Below are positions 6,944 through 63,335 of a DNA stretch of 64,000 bases, piece by piece (within the stretch, counting starts at the first letter, position 1; every line of letters starts with the position of its first letter). Origin of the DNA: Isoetes taiwanensis (Eukaryota; Streptophyta; Lycopodiopsida; Isoetales; Isoetaceae); contig JAJEKV010000049.1 in assembly GCA_021234155.1 (NCBI GenBank), positions 8,962,036-9,026,035 of the forward strand, written 5' to 3'. The position numbers and the translations under genes are program-made. The notes beneath the pieces are model-generated. The model saw only the letters and a program-made list of their open reading frames with translations. It did no database searches and was not told the DNA's origin.

Positions 6944-8240
6944 CAGGTTTCTAGCAAGGGGTTCTGGCACTCGGCTATGGCTATCAGACCTTGTGATTTA
7001 AGGAGCTTTGTGAGCTACGGAGCTATGCCTAAGCCCCAGCAACAACCGTGGCCTATGTGCAATTGCTTAGGCACAAACCACAAGCAAATTAAGAAAGCTT
7101 TCTAGCTATGTTTCAATTCTGGCTTCAATTTCCTTTAAGAGAAATGCCAAGTTCTGTAGTCAGAATTCCAAATCTACACTTAATGGGAAGGATTTATATA
7201 AGGTCTACATGATCTTTGGTATGATGCAGCACATTCGAATTTATGGAGAATGATTCACATAAGCTCCATGCTATCATCTGCATGTTGCAACACAGACATA
7301 CTGTAAGGCGCTTTTGCTTTTACATGGGGGTGTTGGCAGTGGATTGGAGCATATATATGATGAAGCAGAGGGCTTCGAGGCTTCTTGAACCTGGGCTAAC
7401 TCGAATTGAGCTAGAAACAGTTATAAAAAAATGCTCTTCTTCTATTCTATGACAAGGTTTGGAAGAAAAACTGAAAGAGCTTGAGGTTGATATGGATGAT
7501 TTGGAAAGAAACTTTTTGTCGCCTTTTGATCCGTTGTCCACACTCTATCCCGCGCAAAGATTCTACATTTCTCAGCTTTCATTTCCTATCTAAATTTGTT
7601 TCCATGAACTGTTTGGGAGAATCTGAACTATATAGAGTTTTCTTTCCTTCTAAAAGTAAAGTGATTTTAAGCGCATAAATGAATTTTTGGAAGAACATGG
7701 AATACAACGTGAGAAACTAATGGGATGAACTTCTGCCAACCTTAATAGGATGTAGTTAGAAAAGCAATTGGTATTGATTTTATAGGAGAAAACAAAGGGT
7801 TATTCCATGAGGCCAATGCTCTGCAAGAAAGTTTAGATTCTGTGGAAGATGATATTGAACAGAAGCTTGACTTTCAAAGTATACTTGAGATCCTAGCTAG
7901 ACAATTATTGGGAGAAGAACTTAAAATACTTTCCCGGCATGTTGGAGGAAGTTGGAAGTTGGAAAATGCACAACCAAGTGCAAGTGATAATGCAAGTGTT
8001 GAATTGAAAAATATACAAGACAGATGCACAGTCAAAGTAGAATTCGGATCCTTTTTTGAAGAACCAGAGATGCAAGAATATAGTGGGTTATGTCAGGTCT
8101 AAAAAGACAATCCAAGAAAGGAAAAAAGGGAGGAACCATTCTATGAGATTTTTCATCTCTCAACGAAATGAGGTTACGAACAGTAAACCGAAGGCTAGCC
8201 AGGATGGAGCCAATAAGAAAACTTAACAACAGATCTAGAT
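6944..8240 (+). pseudogene. Unrecognised gene X, copy A, decayed
   Basis: Three copies in the window share this sequence, so it is a real former gene or element. Short coding-like runs in shifting frames are ALGYGYQS-type (6975 on), DLYKVYMIFGM (7192-7225), SRLLEPGLTRIELETVIKKC (7366-7435), EEKLKELEVDMDDLERNFLS (7463-7522) and EDDIEQKLDFQSILEILARQ (7845-7904). The last two look helical and charged. Frame changes and stops are frequent. I do not recognise the family. Copy B keeps the first block open for 112 codons. Confidence 0.55.
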
Positions 8241-12298: not shown

Positions 12299-15071
12299 AT
12301 GTTACGCCTGTGGGCTTTGGCATTAATCTGGTGTCGTATCCTACCCACAACGGAACCTGCCAGTACCCAGGAGATCAATGCCCTCCTCGACTTTGGATTC
12401 ACAATCTGGACCAATAAATCTAGCGATCCGTGTGCTTGGAGAGGTATTACTTGCAACAATAATACCAACATTACCAAGATCTATCTGGATACCGCACGTC
12501 TAAGTGGTACCTTTCCATCCTCAATTGGCAATCTCTCCTTTCTTGAGGATATCCAGCTAGGCAACAACTTCTTGACAGGTGAAATACCTTCTTCAATCTC
12601 CCATCTTAAATCCTTGCAACGTCTGGGGTTGGGAACCAATAATCTAACAGGCAACATCCCAACAGAGATTGGAAGCCTGATCAACTTGAGAACTCTTTAT
12701 CTTGACAATAACAATCTCTCGGGCCCAATTCCTCCATCTCTGGGGAATTTGATCCATCTGGAAGAGCTGGTTTTGTCTACTAACTTTCTGACAGGGACCA
12801 TTCCACAAGAATTTGGAAGGCTAAACAATCTCACCTTCCTTTTGCTAAATGCTAACAAATTGAGTGGGGAACTACCTTCCTCTTTCTCCAATCTCACCAA
12901 CATAAAAACGCTTACTCTCTCAAACAACGCACTTTCAGGCAATATATCAGTTCTAGAAAGCATGTCAGCAGTGCTTGAGAAACTTTGGCTCCAAAGAAAC
13001 AACTTTTCTGGTGCAATTTTCAACACCTCTTTTCCCAATCTGGAAGAGCTTGATTTGGGCTTCAATAACTTCAGCGGAAGTCTTCCAGCAGGTCTGGAAG
13101 CCCCAAGTTTATCTCGATTTTTTGCTGGCCACAATAGACTGACAGGGTCCATTCCATCAAGCGTTTCTAGTAGTCTCACACAGATTTCCAATATAGATGT
13201 TTCTCACAACTCGCTAACAGGGTCATCAAAGATGTATGTGTCACCGAAGCAGCAGGATCTCGCCTTCAACTATTTTGATGACTATGAGCAGGCACTGAAG
13301 TGTGATACCCATGGTGCAGCTTCCAACTTAAGTCTTGGGGTGTGCTACCCATCAATTACAGGCTCCAGAACAGGCTATGGGATCAACGCAGGTGGAGATG
13401 CCACTACTTCTGGAACCTCCACATTTCAAGCTGATATCAAGACTCAAGACGATGTCTTCACAGGTTTGTATAAAGTTGCCGACAATTGGTTCTTAGAAAT
13501 TTCTGGCTGGGATGGAGGAACTGTATCACTTACATCTGCGCAAGATATCTACAAGAGTATGAGATGGTCCTCCACATACCTTGCGTATCATGGTACAGAG
13601 CTTAGAAATGGTAGGTACGAAATTACTCTCTATTTTGCTGAATTGGTAGAAAAAGTCTATGTAAATTATCGCCTTTTCGATGTGCTCATTCAAGGAAAGA
13701 TTGTGGCCAAGGATTTGGATGTTGTTAGAAAGGTTGGACAGAATACTGGTTATCATTTCAGTGCTGAAGAGGAGGTCATAAATGGAACTCTATCCATTGA
13801 ATTCATAGTAAGCCGTGAGAATTACTGGGGTCCTAAAACAACAGGACCCATGATCTCAGCTATTTATGTATCTCCAATGTTTCAAGTTAAGAAATCAAAA
13901 ACAAAATATCTAATCATTATTATTCTAGGAGCCGCAGCGTCTATTTTGGTCTTGCTAGGATTGACAGTGGTTTTGATCAGAAGGCGCAGAAAAGCTAACA
14001 GAAATCTTATCTCAGAGAATGAAACCGGTTATTCTACCGCCATCATCTCAAAGATTGGACCAACCGTTTATACATACAAGCAGTTGCTTCAAGCTACAGA
14101 GGGATTCAATGAGAAACTAATGCTTGGAAAGGGAGGATTTGGTGCTGTGTATAAAGGGACTCTTGCAGATGGAAGTGTTGTTGCAGTGAAGCAATTGACA
14201 AAAAAGACGAAAAAGAGTGAAGAGACATTCAAGAAAGAAATTGCAATTCTGAGCATGATACAGCACCGCAATTTGGTGGGAATCAAGGGATATTGTTTGA
14301 ATGCAGGCATATCTTTACTTGTGTGTGACTTTATAGAAAATGGTAGCTTAGAAACTTTCTTGTTCAAGGGGCCAGTGTTGAATTGGCAAGCCAGGCGCAA
14401 AATAGCAATAGGAGCTGCCTGTGGGCTGCAATATTTACACGAAGGATCGAGGTATCAAGTGATCCACTGTGACATAAAACCAGAAAATATTTTGCTAGAT
14501 AAGGAAATGAATGCTTGCATTGGAGATTTCGGCCTTGCAAAACTCTACAAGGAAAGGGTGGCACAGGTTATTGTCACCAAATTGGCTGGAACAATTGGCT
14601 ACATTGCACCAGGTAAGATCCAATTCTTTGTTCAATACAAGTTGAAGTAAGAAGTTAAACACAAATATAATATGACGTTAAAACTACTAACTAACTATAT
14701 TGACTAATTATGGTGTAAACATCATTTCAGAGTATTCAGCCTCTTATGAAATATCAGAGAAGATAGATGTGTACAGCTTTGGTGTGGTGTTGCTGGAGCT
14801 GGTGAGTGGCAAAAGAGCCATTAGTGATAATTTCAGCTATGCTGTGAGCCATGCACAGGAGATGGCTTATGTGCAGCCCAATGATCTATTGAATTTGGTA
14901 GATGAAAAGCTAGGTGGGGAGTTTGACAAACAAGAGGCATTGGACATGAGCACCATAGCCGTGCTATGCACTCAGACATCTCCAGATGCCAGACCAAGAA
15001 TGAGAGATGTCTGGCTCATGCTCAACAACACCATTCCAGTCCCTCCACTCCTAATAAAGCCTACGCCATAA
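12299..15071 (+). CDS. LRR-malectin receptor-like protein kinase (subfamily VIII type)
   Basis: Two exons, 12299-14612 and 14731-15071, join through a GT-AG intron of 118 bp at GCACCAG/GTAAG...TTTCAG/AGTATT. The product has 884 residues. In order it shows a hydrophobic start (MLRLWALALIWC), an LRR N-cap with the pair DPCAWRGITC, about nine leucine-rich repeats (residues ~60-315), a malectin-like domain (GYGINAGGD, ~360-520), one membrane helix (YLIIIILGAAASILVLLG, ~538-560) and a kinase. Kinase residues are intact: GKGGFGAVYKG loop, VAVKQL lysine, HCDIKPENILL catalytic loop, DFGLAKL, and APE rebuilt by the splice. It is probably an active plasma-membrane receptor; the ligand is unknown. HCD replaces the common HRD. 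The best match is the LRR-VIII/malectin class. Confidence 0.93.
14613..14730 (+). other. Intron of the receptor kinase
   Basis: The donor AG/GTAAGATC and acceptor TCATTTCAG/AG restore the kinase APE motif (A-P-E-Y-S). Without splicing, translation would stop at 14650, before the kinase C-lobe. Confidence 0.9.
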
Positions 15072-18000: not shown

Positions 18001-18413
18001 CTCCGTGAGATGGAGAGAGCATAATAATTATGTCTCTCTAGTATATTATGATAAGCTTCCAATCATATTGCTATGACCTAACCATCATCCAATTAAATTG
18101 GGATTATGTCAACTCCAAAATCACGCCAACCTGCTGTTGTCTTCTAGGGGGTTTTTGTTTTTTTTTATCTTTTTTTTTGGACTTGATAAATAACATAAGG
18201 TTGCGATTCACGTGTGACGTTTCATATGTGAATTGAAATATGCAAAAATGAAGAGCAAGTTGCTAAGATAGATGAGACCAAAATTGAACAGCATTTAGAT
18301 GAAAATATTAGGTTTGATAATAACAGATTGCATTATTTGCGAGGCAATTGAAGACTCGAAATTATCGATACATGGCACAAATATCATATATATTCCAATA
18401 AAACATTAAGAGA
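15072..18413. other. Gene-poor stretch between the kinase and the ParB/methyltransferase pseudogene
   Basis: Apart from the MITE at 16726-16931, no gene is supported. The open frame at 17478-17714 has no recognisable domain and no splice context. The region holds A/T-rich sequence, the ambiguous words AAGGT(A/C)GCCAA near 17223 and 17270, and the probable 3' flanks of both neighbours. Confidence 0.6.
16726..16931. mobile_element. Tourist/Harbinger-like MITE, 206 bp
   Basis: The termini are GGCTACGTTCACATG (left) and the inverse of GGCTACGTTCCCATG (right). Both are flanked by TTA (16723-16725 and 16932-16934). A 3-bp TTA duplication fits PIF/Harbinger-type MITEs. No coding capacity. Confidence 0.75.
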
Positions 18414-19038
18414 TCAATCCATGTTTTTCCACGTATTTAACAAGGTGTGGTTCCATGTCAGCGTTCTATCCAGTTCTGGGTATGAATCTAACACACCCAC
18501 CGTCATCCCCATAGCCAAATTATTCATAATAGACACAAACTTCACCAGAAAATCATCTGTCGCAAAGTTTTTTGGATCGTAAGATGGTGGATTCAGGGTC
18601 TGTGCTTGATTGTAGAAGCATTTGAGAGCATCATCATCCACTATGATTATATCATCCTTATTCTCGATACCAAGTTCGTCCATCATGTTACTCAAGTGTT
18701 TGATGAAGATAGGCTTGCCTGTTGGATCCTTGGGATTAGTGAACTTCACACATTTGTTCTGATCCCAAAAGGTCAACCAATGTCTACGCATTCCCCCCAG
18801 TGCCTCCAAAGTATCCTTGATGTTCCTTAGTTCCATGGATGACCAAATACCAACTCGAAATAACCTGAATGCCTCATCTAGCATCTCCTTCAAGTGCGGC
18901 CGCGGATAGATCCACTTGGTGTTTGATTCTACTGGTGTCTGATGAAACTGATCTCTAGCCACTTTATTTTTCGAAAAAGTCTTGCAAAGGACTCCGTTTA
19001 GGTCGAACACCACAATTTTCTTAGAAACGCAATGCAAG
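18414..19038 (-). pseudogene. FCP1/CTD-phosphatase-like HAD domain (last exon of the fusion)
   Basis: This 207-codon stretch is open throughout. It shows HAD motif I as VVFDLNGVLC, IYPRPHLKEMLDEAF (FCP1-type), a motif II region FRVGIWSSMELRNI and motif IV DDIIIVDDDALKC. In active phosphatases motif I is DxDG(T/V). Here the second Asp is Asn (DLNG), a change common in plant FCP1-like proteins but expected to weaken catalysis. The acceptor TTTCAG/CTTGCATTG joins in phase 2 to the upstream exon. It could have started as a separate gene captured by exon fusion. Confidence 0.8.
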
Positions 19039-19249
19039 CTGAAACATCAAACATGTATCTGGTCAGCAAGATATGATCACACAAACAATACAAACGCGCC
19101 AAGCATGATTTAAGTTAGTCTTAACCAAATCGCGCTCGACGTGATTTAATGTGACAACGAAATATAATCAAAGCACGCTTGGCGCGATTTGATTCAAGGG
19201 TAATATAAATTAAATCACGCGTGGCGCGATTTCGTATGCAAGGCCATAC
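19039..19249 (-). repeat. Intron with CACGC..GGCGCG palindrome-like words
   Basis: This 211-bp intron carries at least four motifs on the plus strand: GCGCCAAGCATGATT, GCGCTCGACGTGATT, GCACGCTTGGCGCGATT and CACGCGTGGCGCGATT. They resemble the larger array in the neighbouring intron. Confidence 0.8.
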
Positions 19250-21201
19250 CTATCATCTTCAGTTTCGTTGTCGTCGTCGGCGTCATTCTCCCCTTCGCCA
19301 CCCTTAATCTCCATGCTCTTCTGAGTGTTAGAATTGTTATTTTCTATTAGTTCCTCTACGTCCTTCACAACTGATATTATTTTAGTATTGATTTGGCAAA
19401 CCTGTGAATCACTATAGTCGCCTGGGTTGCCAATGGTCCCTTCACTTTCGGTTGCCCTATTAATTAGATCCTTGTTAACCTGTGAATCTACTCTATTGTT
19501 GCTTGCATCACCCGCAAGGGAGGCAAAGATATTCCCTAAGTTCGCCTTCATCACATTACTTTGAGCAGCCAGTTTAGCAGCCACTTCGTCATTGCTTTCC
19601 TTATCGGGCTACGGATTACTAGTTCCCTCACCAGAACCATCGACCACTTTTGAATTGGACAAGTCTACGAGGCTTTTGATTGCTGAAGATTTCAGGTTGC
19701 CATAAGGGCCTTTAGGAGATTTGGCAAGCACATGCATGAGGAATGGTTCAAGAAAGTCTTTGGCCTGCTCATCACTCACAAAGCAGTGACATCTTCTAAC
19801 ACCCATAAGAGCCTCTCGGGCAATATAACCTCCAACATGAAGCTCCAAGCAGGTTGTGGGCCCTTCTCCTTAGTTTGTAGCTCGTACTTGATTTCACCAC
19901 TTAGGAGGGGGTCCCGATCCTCATCCTCTTCTGACTCATCCTGTTCCTGATTCTGATCCTGATCCGTATGATAGAATATAGTTCTTAAGTCTGGATCATC
20001 TAGAAGAAAACATTCCCATGCACTGCTATTGTCACCCTTGGCCTTAGCAATATCATATTCCTCGTCTGACATCATGGCTATCATAATAAAGATCACATGT
20101 GCCATCTTCCGTTCTGTTCACAGCTCATTATCCATAACATCATATATTAGGCATCCCTCCCTAATAACTTTGAGGCACTCCAGATCATGAGCAGCGGATA
20201 GTGCATGCAGATGTGACTCACCAGAAGGACAAACGATGACAATAGTGAAGGACCTCTCGTTGTCAATCCTATACAAACGGGTAAAGAAGTCATTGTAGTC
20301 CTTCTCGTTCATGCCCATATCTCCTCTCCCACCCCTGCTGTCCAACACAAAGAGTGATATATTTTTAAGGCAAGAAGTTGATTCTGGCAAGAGACCTTTG
20401 TACCCAATGGAGTCTGAATACTGGACAGTGTCTTCTTCTCCAGTAATCTTCTTCACAAGGGCCACTTTTCTTCTCAACTCGGCCAGTACCTTAGGGCGTA
20501 GAGTCTCCTTATGTTTTGCATTTTTAGCCTTCCAATTCTTTAGGAAATTCTTTGACCAGAATACAAACTTCTTGATATCATCATTGCTGACCTTGTATTT
20601 GTCCAGCAATCTAATTTCAGATAATGCCACATCCCCCGATAGCCTTTGTAACTCAGCTCCTACAGTTGACTTCATTGTACGTACATCCTTCACATGGCTG
20701 CAACACTCAATGAAGGACATCCTATCCTTAGTGAAAGCACTCTTTTTGTATAAGACTTTCTTCTTTAAGCATTGGTCTAAAACTCAAATGGTCTCAGCGT
20801 CGTCTAGCCCCTGAGTCTTTCTCATCTCTGTTACATTCAAGTCAAAGATGCTTACATCAACAGGAGGCATCCTACCCATAGTATCTGACAGCTTCCCTTG
20901 TGCATAAACGTCCCAAAATTCATTCCACTTTTGCCATACTGCCTCCTTACAAAAGACAATCTTATACGAGTCTGTTGGGCCTGACCTGCTAGATAAGCTT
21001 TCAGAAGGATCTGCAATGTCATCACCACCTTTTTTCTTTGATTTTTTTGCAGTCTTCTTCTTCTCCTGTATAATTGTCTGCGACAGAGTCCGCTCCAGCA
21101 GCTTGAATGCCTCAGACTTTGACCCGCCCTGTCTGGTGGGTAATGGGCAGCCATATTCCACCCATTGTTGACGGGCGTGGCGCAGTTGCTCCACGTATGG
21201 A

Positions 21202-21651
21202 CTGCAATAGTACAGACATTGAATCAGTATCATAGAATAGAAACACGCCGGGCGCGATTTGAATAGAATTGATCAACAGAAAAATCACGCCTGGCGTGAA
21301 ATGAATTAAGCTACTAATGCAATTCATGCCAGGCGTGCTTTCAAATCAATTGAATTCACGCCAGGCGTGCTTTCAAATCAAAACAATTCACGCTTGTTTT
21401 GATTAAAAGCACGCCAGGCGTGAATTGGTTTGATTTGAAAGCACGCCTGGCGTGAATTGATTTGATTTGAAAGCACGCCTGGCGTGAATTGTTTTGATTT
21501 GAAAGCACGTCTGGCGTGAATTGTTTTGATTTGAAAGCACGCCTGGCGTGAATTCAATTGATTTGAAAGCACGCCTGGCGTGAATTCAATTGATTTGAAA
21601 GCACGCCTGGCGTGAATCTTAAAATGCTAACATCCTAACACAGTTAATTAC
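21202..21651 (-). repeat. Intron filled by a 32-bp palindromic tandem array
   Basis: The 13-bp dyad CACGCC(T/A)GGCGTG starts at 21286, 21325, 21357, 21410, 21442, 21474, 21506, 21538, 21570 and 21602, with a half unit at 21389. From 21410 the period is exactly 32 bp. Flanks read AATTGATTTGAAAG in one orientation to the right of ~21400 and the reverse complement to the left, so the array is itself inverted about its centre. It sits wholly inside a GT-AG intron that joins two in-frame exons. Confidence 0.95.
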
Positions 21652-22795
21652 CTTTTGTATAGAAATGTCTTCCCCATTTCATTCAAAGTTGCACTAATCT
21701 CAGCCAAATCTGCAGGTGAAGTATTGGCATCCACCAAGAGACGACATCTCCTATACGCATAGTGATTGTAGAACACGCTTTGGCCTGTTTGTTCTGCCTG
21801 CCTGATGAGGGCCTTCTGTGCCTCAATAAAATGCTGCCCGTCGATGATGACGAATTTAATGTTATCATTTAACATTAACTCCTCGAAGTTCGTCCACACA
21901 GCAGGCTTGTTCAAGATCATATCCCAAGGTAACACATCCGCTGGCATAGGCATTTAACCTGGATTACTAATCATGCTCTGAACAATATCCATGGCATGTG
22001 CTGGATCATATCTTCTGCTAACATAAATGGAGCTTGGTGAACGGATGAGGGACTTCACATGGATCTGAAAAGTTTCCTTAAGACCCAATGGATCATGGTC
22101 AGAGTACTTATTCAGCTTGTTCATGGCCTCTAGCTGCGCCACCCTGTCCTGTTCATTCTCAAAAACAGAAGCCTCCATGCCTTCGACAACTGCAGGAAGA
22201 ACATCCTTCCCTAGATTTAGGACCCTCCTCGAAGCTTTCAAGTCAGCTAATTTCCTAGCTTGCTACAAATAGTGACTTGGTGTCGGTTTATTAAACATTC
22301 CTCTACGCACAGCTGCAACCCCTTGGCAAATAGATATTGGCGTAACTGCTACATTGGTGGGCCAGCCATACTTAAAACATGTCTCACCGTTCACATCTGT
22401 CCTCATGAACGTATCCTTGTATGCAGTAGCTCTACAGTGAGTAAGTCTAAGCAGATCTTTCTTCTGCTTATGTGTAATCTCCAAGAGCAATTTGCAGTTG
22501 GTGTCGTCCTCTTCCTCACAAGAGATTAGGATCCCTTGTTTGGTCATCTTGTATGCTTCCGTTTTCCTCGAGAAGAGAGTTAAGTCGAGCTTGCCATTTG
22601 TCTTGGCAAGGTCAACGTACCACTCGGCACCCTCGTCCATTTCCTCTTCAGGGCACGCAGGGTCAGTGGTTGCTATAAGAATCGGCCCTTCATCATCTAA
22701 TGTGATATCATATGGTACTGCATCTGGGTCGTCTACCCTTGATTTCTTACCAGGAATAGACCCCAAATTATTAGGGGTTTTCTTCCTCTTGGGCA

Positions 22796-23286
22796 CTGCA
22801 AAAGAAGATGAACATTTTTTTATAGTATTTTCCAGAACAAGAGATCACGCTTGGCGTGAATTTAAGCCTAAATTAGTATAATTCACGCTTGGCTTGTTCG
22901 TACTGTGTACCATGCTATGCGTGAATTTGAAGCTAAATTAGTATGCATCCAGATTTTAAGCTATGTACCCTTTATGAATCCATATTTCACACTATTTAAC
23001 CTCATTGAACACTGCTATCTCTAACTGTCAAACCTCCAGCTCTAAATAGGTGTGTACCCCTCTGTTAAAAAATACTAAGAACTATATTCTTTAAACACAG
23101 AGCAAAATTATGTTCTTAAAAAACAGACAATCAGAGCATTAACTGAAGGTAATAATTTAAATTCATGCAAAGCATAATAACTCAAATTCAAGCAAAGCAT
23201 ATTAACTGAAGGCAAGGAAATAACTCAAATTCATGCAATGCATAATACTCTCCACACACTGTGTATTCAGAAGGCAAATTAAATAC
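22796..23286 (-). repeat. First visible intron, with the same CACGCTTGGCGTG words
   Basis: Words CACGCTTGGCGTGAATT (about 22846), TTCACGCTTGGCTTG and GCTATGCGTGAATT lie in the 491-bp intron near its 3' end. The donor CAAG/GTATTT and acceptor TTTTGCAG/TGCCC give a phase-1 join that restores frame. Confidence 0.75.
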
Positions 23287-23447
23287 CTTGAATAGGGGTC
23301 TGATCAACGTCCTCTGAAACTTGAGAAGAGCCAGGTTTTGAGTTTCCTCTGCCACCGCTTCCTCGGCCCCGTCCGCCTCGACCACCTCTGGTTTTAGAAC
23401 GCAAGGTCGCTCGGATAAGCGCTCGAGCTGCTCGAAGAAATAGCTTT

Positions 23448-23873
23448 TTCTACCTGTACGAGAAATAGCTTTTTCTAACTGCACGAGAGAAATTTGAATT
23501 TCAAGAAAACACAATATGCAGTTTCGAAATATTCTTGACACATAAAAATAATACTGACGAAGATTCACTATAAAAAAAAAAAAGAACCCGTCCGCCGACT
23601 TCTTTCATTGAGTTTTTAAAAACCAATCTACCGTGTTCTTTCATTGATTACATTTATCCCGCTTAAATATAGTTAGCCTAAGCTTTCTTCTAACTCGAAT
23701 TTTTCCCGACCGCCTGGGTTTCCATAGCGCCTGTGATTTCGAGAACTCGAATCAGCTTCTCAAGAATGGCTACAGAATTCTGGTACTCATCTCATTCCTA
23801 TAGCTTGAACATTAATTTCCAATAGTAGGTGTCTAAATAGGCAATTGTCTGCAGTGTCGAAGATGAATGTTTC
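23448..23873. other. Undefined 5' region of the ParB/methyltransferase pseudogene
   Basis: A 27-bp tandem duplication of AGAAAAAGCTATTTCTCG(T) occurs just upstream of the first visible exon (23440-23495). An in-frame stop follows it, so neither the start codon nor the first exon can be placed. The rest is A/T-rich with no further gene. Confidence 0.5.
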
Positions 23874-24100
23874 ATGTTAACTACAAATCAGAAAAGGAAA
23901 GTAGGATTATGCAAGATCGACTCCATCGATCCGACTACAAACTGTCATGGAATTCTGCTCGGGGATAAGTATGTCCAGGTTACAGTGATTAACTGCTGCG
24001 CTATGGATGAAGCTTTACCTCGCAGACACCCCTGTGGGGAGGAGAAAGTGTTAAAACATTTGTTGCATGGCCAAGAAACCGCTTAAAAAAGGTATGTAAC
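23874..24100 (+). pseudogene. Fragment resembling the C-terminal domain of plant transposon TNP-type proteins
   Basis: The frame KRKVGLCKIDSIDPTTNCHG..LGDKYVQVTVINCCAMDEALPR fits a module seen in plant En/Spm-related TNP proteins ('V..STDP...GG.PLG..Y.EV.V.....DE.LPRP'). A shift near 24045 moves to FVAWPRNRLKK, the usual ending. The match is from memory of the family pattern. It is a short relic with no transposon ends visible. Confidence 0.4.
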
Positions 24101-24479
24101 ATGTATTACGTTGTAGAAATATAGAAGTAGACAAAATTTGTTGTATTGATTGGCAAAAGTTTACAATTATATATAATCTGGATAAACCAGACATACAAAA
24201 TCCCAGGCTGTTTCAAACACAGTCTACTGTTTCAAGCCCAGTCTACTGAGTAGCTTGGCTATCGATACTCCCATTTCCATTCCAGGGCATAGTGAATTCT
24301 TCTGGTAAAACCCCAGCAAAAATAGAACCTTTGTTCTCTGAAGATGAATTTTTAATCATTCTGAATTTAGTGTCAAAATAGTTTGCATAGTGTCAAAGAA
24401 TAATATATAGTGCCCCAGTGCATTGTATTTGCTAGAAATCACAAATTTTGTGCAGTACATATTTGCTAGGCCTGAAAGC

Positions 24480-49830: not shown

Positions 49831-50345
49831 ATAACAACCAACACATAACAACCATTGACATTAACAACCAACACATAACTACCATTGACATTAATTAACA
49901 CAACCATTGGGTCCAACACATTTAAATTAAAATCCCCCTTAAACCCCAAACGGTTTGGGTGCATATTCACACGGGAAGTGACGTAGGGCAGCGAGAGCCC
50001 TCATAATTGTATTTTGCACATACGAAATCAACACCATATAGTATTCCACTTGAAATCTTATAGTATTTTGCGAATCTTGTTATACAATATAGCAAATTTT
50101 GTACTTGCATACCCCACAAACGAGGAACTTTATGTACGGTGTAGATTAAAGAATAAGGGGTGAATATGCCTATCCAACAGCTTTCGTTGCCCGGAGTCAC
50201 CCCGTGTGAATATGCACCCAAACCAAAGGGGGTTTAAGGGGGATTTTAATTTAAATGTGTTGGACCCAATGGTTGTGTTAATTAATGTCAATGGTAGTTA
50301 TGTGTTGGTTGTTAATGTCAATGGTTGTTATGTGTTGGTTGTTAT
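49831..50345. mobile_element. Foldback element, ~150-bp arms
   Basis: Arms 49831-49982 and 50196-50345 are reverse complements with few mismatches (ATGCACCCAAACC against GGTTTGGGTGCAT; CAACACATTTAAATTAAAAT). The outer part of each arm contains ~27-bp repeats of CATTGACATTAACAACCAAC. The centre (49983-50195) is unique and noncoding. Ends and target duplication are not resolved, because the left flank continues with similar AACA-rich words from 49785. Confidence 0.85.
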
Positions 50346-62607: not shown

Positions 62608-62660
62608 CCTATAGATAACACATTTTTACACAAGGCCATGTAGTTATATATTAATAAAAA

Positions 62661-63335
62661 TACAATTTTTTATTAATAGTCCTGATCAAAGTGTGAGTCA
62701 TCGACTTTCTCATAGTCTGCAGGGTTAATCTTACTGCGGTCAATTTGCTCCTCCTGCTCAGCTCCACCTTGGCCGGATGTCTCTCCTTTCTCTCCACCTT
62801 GACCTGATTCGTCCTCCTCATTTTCTCCCCCGACTGCTCCACCATCTTTAATAGTCAAGACTTCGCGCTGGCCAATGGCCTTTGGGGCAAGCAAGGGGTA
62901 TAGGGCGTTCTATGCATTTAATCTTCACGAAGTCATGCTCATATGTCGCACTGATTCTTCCTACATGAAGTGATACCCTAGATAGAGCTCCAGCAGATAC
63001 AATTTTTTTTTAATAGTCCTGATCAAAGTGTGAGTCATCGACTTTCTCATAGTCTCCAGGGTTAATCTTACTGCGGTCAATTTGCTCCTCCTGCTCAGCT
63101 CCACCTTGGCCGGATGTCTCTCCTTTCTCTCCACCTTGACCTGATTCGTCCTCCTCATTTTCTCCCCCGACTGCTCCACCATCTTTAATAGTCAAGACTT
63201 CGCGCTGGCCAATGGCCTTTGGGGCAAGCAAGGGGTATAGGGCGTTCTATGCATTTAATCTTCACGAAGTCATGCTCATATGTCGCACTGATTCTTCCTA
63301 CATGAAGTGATGCCCTAGATAGAGCTCCAGCAGAG
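62661..63335. repeat. Tandem duplication, 337-bp unit, of a gene 3' end
   Basis: 62661-62997 and 62998-63335 are almost identical. Differences include CTGCAGG/CTCCAGG and GATACCC/GATGCCC. The unit covers the C-terminal ~110 codons and the stop codon of the minus-strand methyltransferase-fold gene, so the outer copy (62661-62997) is a detached second C-terminus. Confidence 0.95.

Follow-up and report, generated by a model that had tools for sequence, protein, structure and literature searches.

Few plant transposons are known to carry regulators of their own, and VANC, the accessory protein of the MuDR-type VANDAL elements of Arabidopsis, is the one case that we found in print. According to the portions of two reports used here, VANC binds a short motif that recurs in arrays in the element's non-coding DNA, introns among it; the element escapes silencing, and the motif differs between related families (PMC5735166, PMC10398659). 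Here we describe a 64-kb stretch of Isoetes taiwanensis DNA (contig JAJEKV010000049.1; called the window, and the source of all coordinates unless another locus is named), which very probably holds a dead, truncated copy of a ~12.3-kb high-copy DNA transposon with 32-bp terminal inverted repeats (TIRs), 4-bp target-site duplications (TSDs) and two divergent genes. One of the two is a spliced gene that appears to join a ParB/sulfiredoxin (Srx)-like domain, a degenerate beta-class methyltransferase (MTase) fold and an FCP1-like HAD domain. The explanation that we favour as a whole, with moderate confidence, is a dead transposon copy whose gene encoded a VANC-like accessory protein.

The Isoetes element resembles VANDAL, as described in those portions, in being a plant DNA transposon with an accessory gene and with family-specific motif arrays in its non-coding DNA, which includes the accessory gene's introns. 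It differs in its protein (ParB/Srx, MTase and HAD folds), its putative transposase (DUF7869), its 4-bp TSD and the palindromic form of its motif.

Transposons with DNA-modifying genes were already known, and DIRS elements carry methyltransferases. Four further systems, each seen through part of its source, share features with the Isoetes element: (i) The fungal TET/JBP transposons (KDZ, Plavaka and others) are also DNA transposons, and carry a gene whose product can act on modified DNA or its modification (PMC12730594); unlike them, the Isoetes element has another enzyme fold and another host. (ii) The viral elements Mariner-2_PGv and Mariner-1_OLpv have a methyltransferase gene inside a eukaryotic-type DNA transposon; they differ in being found in viruses and in using other methyltransferase families, and the excerpt used mentions neither ParB nor HAD (PMC3627910). 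(iii) Bacterial Bce_0392 unites a ParB domain and an adenine methylase in one protein, for which nicking activity is reported (PMC5512222); in contrast, the Isoetes families have Ser at the arginine site and motif IV is lost in the window family; the similarity is only remote. (iv) The bdelloid N4CMT shows that a eukaryote can have an amino-methyltransferase of bacterial type that is linked to transposons; it differs in being a host gene that marks and silences them, with a chromodomain fusion and a catalytic SPPY (PMC8885841). For a ParB-MTase-HAD protein in a plant transposon, we found no description by title or abstract in the open-licence PMC literature, which excludes most subscription journals.

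The window locus, with its family (I) and two sister families of the same genome (II and III, introduced below), was compared with copies drawn from the whole assembly (1,658,258,908 bases in 1110 contigs). The gene lies on the minus strand, and its features are:

18080..24322, minus strand: incomplete transposon copy, its gene-proximal (3') end intact and its opposite end cut off at ~24322
18080..18110, no strand assigned: TIR, with 1 mismatch to the 31-bp family pattern
23287..23447, minus strand: exon 1, RGG repeats; upstream limit uncertain
22796..23286, minus strand: intron 1, palindromes at 22846 and 22884
21652..22795, minus strand: exon 2, a basic start resembling a nuclear localization signal (NLS), then the putative ParB/sulfiredoxin-like domain; two in-frame stops
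21807..21851, minus strand: ParB-like core VIIDGQHFIEAQKAL; GQHS or GNHS in most other copies
21202..21651, minus strand: intron 2, array of the CACGCC[A/T]GGCGTG palindrome, mostly in a 32-bp register
19250..21201, minus strand: exon 3, linker, putative degenerate beta-class methyltransferase fold and acidic tail; interrupted by three stops and by the 19857/19858 deletion
20322..20348, minus strand: VLDSRGGRG at the expected place of the DPPY-type motif IV; family II counterpart ADLPYG
19807..19848, minus strand: LELHVGGYIAREAL at the expected place of motif I (FxGxG); family II counterpart DAFSGSGTT
19039..19249, minus strand: intron 3, palindromes at 19174 and 19216
18414..19038, minus strand: exon 4, FCP1/UBLCP1-like HAD domain (NIF), DLNGVL replacing DxDx(T/V); 3' end frameshifted in the window copy

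A sequence-only reading of this DNA had proposed four exons with GT-AG junctions at 23287/22795, 21652/21201 and 19250/19038 (last and first exon bases), joined in one continuous frame. The borders hold in other genomic copies: for introns 1, 2 and 3, the donor is GT in 7/7, 10/10 and 8/9 mapped copies and the acceptor AG in 9/9, 11/11 and 7/8. The segments that it had pointed out (RGG, NLS-like, VIIDGQHFIEAQKAL, VLDSRGGRG, the motif-I-like segment and VVFDLNGVLC) are all present in the window copy, and its domain order of ParB-like, beta-class methyltransferase fold and FCP1-like HAD extends to the family, including a diverged subfamily described below. The continuous frame does not survive. 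Five in-frame stops interrupt it (22263-22265, 21954-21956, 20784-20786, 20118-20120 and 19609-19611), the HAD end is frameshifted relative to four other copies, and the candidate start ATG, found in 7/7 translated copies, is missing. The deletion at 19857/19858, where eight other copies carry 59-67 extra bases by blastn and a ninth aligned through, also shifts the frame. Part of the methyltransferase region is missing from the window copy. The window copy is a pseudogene, a truncated copy of a high-copy repeat. Among the copies examined none had every exon open, exons 2 and 3 being open in L007, and in none was the HAD exon seen as a separate gene, an outcome that the sequence-only reading had named as refuting it.

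That the gene might lie within a transposon had been suggested as a possibility, and rightly so: it is carried by complete elements with TIRs and target duplications. Twelve 10-kb family copies were fetched for comparison. Their alignments with the window stop at 18079/18080 in 6/12 and, on the other side, at 24315-24322 in 4/12, and the end motif is present in nine of the 12. Across the genome the 31-bp end (≤3 mismatches) has 1847 matches on one strand and 1877 on the other, against 0 and 0 for a reversed control. A pattern search (≤6 mismatches) found no second TIR within the 64-kb window. The reverse complement of the end motif does lie at the far side of copies c1027 and c1049; in c1027, which belongs to the window's subfamily, both TIRs are present 13.7 kb apart, with DUF7869-type open reading frames (ORFs) and, by eye, a 4-bp duplication AATA. 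We then took 12 of at least 16 close opposite TIR pairs among the first 100 places listed. Their spacing is 12.3-12.8 kb, and an exact 4-bp target duplication flanks 12/12; ten were read at the flanks only and two, C258 and C112, were read whole.

The latter are complete elements of 12,288 bp (C258) and 12,287 bp (C112) with perfect 32-bp TIRs. In each, tblastn places the ParB/MTase-like/HAD gene on one arm and a second gene on the opposite arm, pointing away. The first gene represents a diverged subfamily, with roughly 30-45% protein identity to the window family (27-61% in individual stretches), and frames are broken in both elements. Pfam matches over cut-off are DUF7869 in C112 (2.1e-6) and NIF in the other complete element (2.8e-7); DUF7869 is also matched in L017 (4.4e-23), in the arm of c1049. 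The two second-gene pieces of C258 have no Pfam match and were recognised by tblastn. The DUF7869 gene is likely the element's transposase. At 49979-50129 (minus strand) of the window, ~26 kb from the element, are fragments like the N-terminal part of the family's DUF7869 gene (54-83% identity over 23-41 aa), and at 7445-7885 (plus strand) of L017, inside one transposon copy, an ORF resembles, by eye, the end of a PIF1/Helitron-type helicase (SYAITAHKSQGGTIEGK).

Other kinds of locus were tried and rejected. A single host gene does not fit three window exon queries with at least 150 scored genome matches each (from 3192, 7075 and 3818 first-look candidates). A non-LTR (long terminal repeat) element or spliced retrocopy was rejected because the copies keep their introns and end in TIRs with TSDs. 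CTRR is a feature of Helitron 3' ends; the 3' end here lacks it and folds no better than shuffles (119/200 were as good), and a Helitron was rejected. An endogenous virus, i.e. a polinton-like or giant-virus remnant, would have a precedent in the ParB-MTase fusions and polyvalent proteins known from bacteria and phages (PMC5512222). We consider it highly improbable in view of the 12.3-kb elements with 4-bp TSDs, the lack of any viral structural or polymerase Pfam family over cut-off among the ORFs scanned (two full-length copies were examined), and the lack of relatives in viral contigs, by scans for close relatives, and likewise in phages when the window family's exon 3 was used.

Related genes form two more families in this genome. 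A search with PF01555 gave at least 150 matches from 1444 candidates, and all matches listed exceed the curated cut-off. Loci L019-L022, taken from these, belong to another spliced family (II), whose motif IV reads ADLPYG and whose motif I reads DAFSGSGTT, or close variants, and which has GGNHSFKA in the ParB-like exon where that is covered. A third family (III) has at least 150 genome matches from 4187 candidates. The representative genes are:

L023 5389-7623 and L024 3435-6166: family II, apparently intact gene for ParB plus beta-class amino-methyltransferase
L030 566-3998 and L031 668-4236: family III, long N-terminal region with a lysine-rich stretch, ParB-like domain and degenerate methyltransferase end

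The joined family II exons match PF01555 at 4.7e-20 and the NCBIfam CcrM model at 1.2e-12, the latter below that model's cut-off. One family II copy has a divergent DUF7869 ORF alongside (1.5e-28). The family II terminus pattern has 341 and 355 genome copies, with hardly any opposite pairs among the places listed; in some copies this end carries a perfect 20-bp palindrome (GGGAGTGCTGCAGCACTCCC). Plant-side descent from phage or bacterial ParB-methyltransferases, the origin proposed by the sequence-only reading, is not shown: the intact-looking family II methyltransferase is only ~22-28% identical to phage enzymes (the 20 records listed of 938). Pattern scanning, an approach limited to close relatives, confirmed no relative among viral and prokaryote contigs.

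Homology of the methyltransferase domain and putative homology of the ParB domain, both invisible to Pfam in the window family, came to light via these sister families. For the ParB side, families I and III match at 7.6e-18 to 1.4e-14 by phmmer in the ten best family I ORFs, fragments matching more weakly, and the match continues in order from the ParB region into exon 3. A joint I+III profile of this region scores 10.2 bits against family II, a score reached by 0/4000 shuffles, narrowly (best shuffle 10.0), and among real ORFs it gives family II 12.1 and 7.7 bits against 7.3 for the next ORF. The joint alignment keeps G-x-H-S-x-x-A, and its best PDB match is a sulfiredoxin (E 0.42), in register, with 6/12 rows being Srx. 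Weak matches of the window family fall at one place (DndB 0.061, phrog ParB 0.11), below cut-offs where any exist, and family II matches TIGR03764 (0.0011) and DUF6551 (0.0023), both below cut-off. For the window family each such match is insignificant alone; because they are co-located, together they support the earlier call of a ParB domain.

Weighing against this assignment, the sulfiredoxin search also gives beta-lactamases in 4/12 rows (E 0.44-0.55), and ParB_N (PF02195) found nothing over cut-off in the genome. An active-site arginine is typical of the ParB/Srx superfamily, according to the part of the source used (PMC5512222), and here it is replaced by Ser: GxHS is found in 7/7 sequences aligned from families I, II and III, while F occurs in this place in the window copy and in L011, and L014 reads DRQHS.

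For exon 3, the I+III profile of the methyltransferase region scores 10.8-21.1 bits against family II, and 0/4000 shuffles reach the best of these (best shuffle 6.6); the family I profile scores 17.0 bits against family III (0/4000 shuffles), the family III pieces having been chosen after their motif likeness was noticed. When this profile is run over 366 real ORFs (minimum 100 aa), ten family II ORFs come out at the top with 5.3-14.5 bits, one family I fragment standing among them; four of the ten are two ORFs that recur in both L021 and L023. ORFs outside the families reach at most 0.9 bits; one family II piece, L022:650-1135, falls outside the top 60. The beta-class order, motif IV before motif I, is kept: ADLPYG of family II exon B precedes DAFSGSGTT of exon C, and the degenerate families have the same arrangement.

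Single families compared directly give little. The I to II test is weak (≤5.0 bits, 3/4000 shuffles as high), as are II to I (2.5 bits, 29/5000), III to II (8.4 bits, 2/4000) and II to III (2.2 bits, 11/4000), and hhalign of family I against II is not significant (profiles with an effective sequence number, Neff, of 1.2-1.6). PDB searches with exons 2 and 3 alone found nothing below E 0.7. The profile searches that the sequence-only reading had proposed as a check succeeded for the HAD exon, with NIF, and, in the window family, brought no ParB or methyltransferase model of Pfam over its cut-off. These results count against homology; the comparison through the sister families supports exon 3 as a predicted homologue of the beta-class amino-methyltransferase fold.

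Exon 4 is the only window piece over a Pfam cut-off, matching the NIF domain at 7e-15 (55.5 bits vs a cut-off of 21.8). The nearest PDB entry is UBLCP1 (0.0045), TIGR02245 is matched at 1.1e-4, below cut-off, and a single-sequence search of the PDB at E 0.001 gave no match for the HAD domain. The signature of FCP1/SCP-type HAD phosphatases is DxDx(T/V). In its place the window, L011, L005, L012 and C258 have DLNGVL and L004 has DQNGVL; L006 is broken there and L009 does not cover it. The catalytic motif IV, (D/N/S)PPY, is likewise absent: family I reads VLDSR and family III VLDTRG, and family II alone has a variant, DLPY. At motif I, the S-adenosylmethionine-binding FxGxG, family I has HVGGY and family II FSGSG. 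By sequence the catalytic signatures of all three domains are thus altered in the window family (GxHS, VLDSR, HVGGY, DLNGVL), and since this includes those of the methyltransferase and HAD domains, the family does not provide evidence for an active methyltransferase-phosphatase.

Selection nonetheless maintained the protein through these changes in its enzyme signatures. The ratio of nonsynonymous to synonymous substitution (dN/dS) was computable in 11/16 pairs, with values of 0.21-0.52 for the ParB exon (n=4), 0.15-0.72 for exon 3 (n=4) and 0.24-0.44 for HAD (n=3), and it is below 0.55 in 10/11; these values are rough because pairs share sequences and include time as pseudogenes. In the other five pairs synonymous sites are saturated (proportions of synonymous and nonsynonymous differences, pS 0.81-0.86 and pN 0.27-0.34). 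One might read the selection as that on a working enzyme, whose HAD domain would take phosphate off a DNA end or the tail of RNA polymerase II and whose methyltransferase would modify element DNA, DNA binding being secondary. The NIF match, the UBLCP1 match, the TIGR02245 match below cut-off, and the DLPY and FSGSG of family II suit this, while VLDSRG, HVGGY and DLNG in the window family, VLDTRG in family III and VLDSRG with DLNG even in the diverged C258 copy argue otherwise, and we regard it as unlikely. Alternatively, the gene could be a set of captured host genes that hitchhike with no role for the element. High-copy DNA transposons pick up host exons, and the HAD part resembles FCP1/UBLCP1-like proteins; yet the same three-part gene sits at the same place in subfamilies only roughly 30-45% identical, dN/dS is low, and related ParB-MTase genes occur in two more high-copy families, making hitchhiking very unlikely.

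The introns of the gene bear an unexpected repeat. The window has 15 CACGCC[A/T]GGCGTG sites (≤2 mismatches), all in its three introns and none elsewhere in the 64 kb, against 0-3 sites in each of 20 shuffled windows. Across ten copies including the window (≤1 mismatch; exon 1 was not among the queries, and diverged-subfamily copies c1034, c1018 and c943 were left out), 94 sites were counted: 0 in ~35.6 kb of exons 2-4, 79 in introns, 13 in a 900-bp stretch directly upstream of exon 2 that is largely intron 1, and 2 elsewhere; the gene span assumed for c1049 was lengthened by a second gene of ParB-like type. Family II has a palindrome of its own, GTATTC[C/T][A/G]GAATAC, with 31 sites in four copies: 0 in exons, 26 in introns, 5 upstream and 0 elsewhere. 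All these counts represent few independent events because the copies are related. The commonest palindromic word differs by family, with CACGC arms in I (50), TATTC arms in II (30) and ATGGC arms in III (15), against at most 2 in shuffles. The genome has 386 and 427 matches to a 19-mer around the family I palindrome (control 0), and 71 of the 100 places listed have one of the listed family I exon matches no more than 10 kb away, where ~0.5 would be expected.

The arrays do not follow the protein everywhere, which speaks against a binding role. In the diverged subfamily, the family I palindrome (≤2 mismatches) has 9 sites in c1034, 5 in c1018 and 1 in c943, and in the complete elements it is absent or rare (C258 0, C112 2). 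The C258/C112 type had no leading palindromic word in an unbiased count (top word 3 copies, shuffle 2), and C258 carries a related repeat, AAATCGCGCC.AGCGCGTTTT. The commonest family III word, ATGGCGCCAT, lies upstream of the gene, outside introns. The VANC-like feature, family-specific arrays in the element's own non-coding DNA, is thus found in families I and II and not seen in the C258/C112 type. The palindromes could instead be transposase sites, splicing signals or RNA hairpins, with the accessory protein acting elsewhere. This would suit the intronic arrays, which adjoin splice sites in family II, and the near lack of the family I palindrome and of any leader word in C258 and C112. Set against it, each of families I, II and III has a palindromic word of its own, as a co-evolving protein would lead one to expect; this pairing is not fully discriminating, because transposases differ between families too, and we hold such other roles to be somewhat unlikely.

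As to how the window gene worked, we tentatively propose a VANC-like, self-recognising DNA-binding accessory protein, by analogy with VANDAL. The protein would bind the palindrome array of its own element (CACGCCWGGCGTG) sequence-specifically, at sites mainly in the introns of its own gene, and the bound protein would mark copies of its own element, so that they are regulated or relieved from silencing in the way that VANC acts on Arabidopsis VANDAL. The enzyme domains of the window family would act as scaffolds, their catalytic signatures lost. The intact-looking methyltransferase of family II may methylate element DNA on an amino group, as N6-methyladenine (6mA) or N4-methylcytosine (4mC). 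This proposal rests on the motif arrays, their family specificity in I and II and the conservation of the protein; from these we infer both the binding and the effect on silencing or transposition. A broader version, which we think rather unlikely, would have a whole DUF7869 transposon superfamily of a lycophyte recognise itself by family-specific palindromes bound by ParB/Srx-MTase proteins, the arrays lying in non-coding DNA of each element and chiefly in introns of the protein's gene. One lineage would retain a functional amino-methyltransferase and write 6mA or 4mC on element DNA inside a plant nucleus, and in the window lineage all three enzyme folds would have become scaffolds.

The palindromes, confined to non-coding DNA, offer a directly testable binding target for how a transposon distinguishes its own copies from other DNA. 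In this one genome, three high-copy families encode ParB-MTase-type proteins that are related to each other; in one of the families the bacterial-type amino-methyltransferase looks intact, and the role of amino-methylation of DNA in plants is disputed. In the window family, a protein with three former enzyme folds appears to have been kept under selection.

Two observations concern the remainder of the window. An ORF at 14691-15071 (plus strand) resembles, by eye, the end of a receptor-like kinase domain (VYSFGVVLLELVSGKRAI), and a 337-bp unit at 62660-63334 is duplicated in near-perfect tandem, with 99% identity between the two units.

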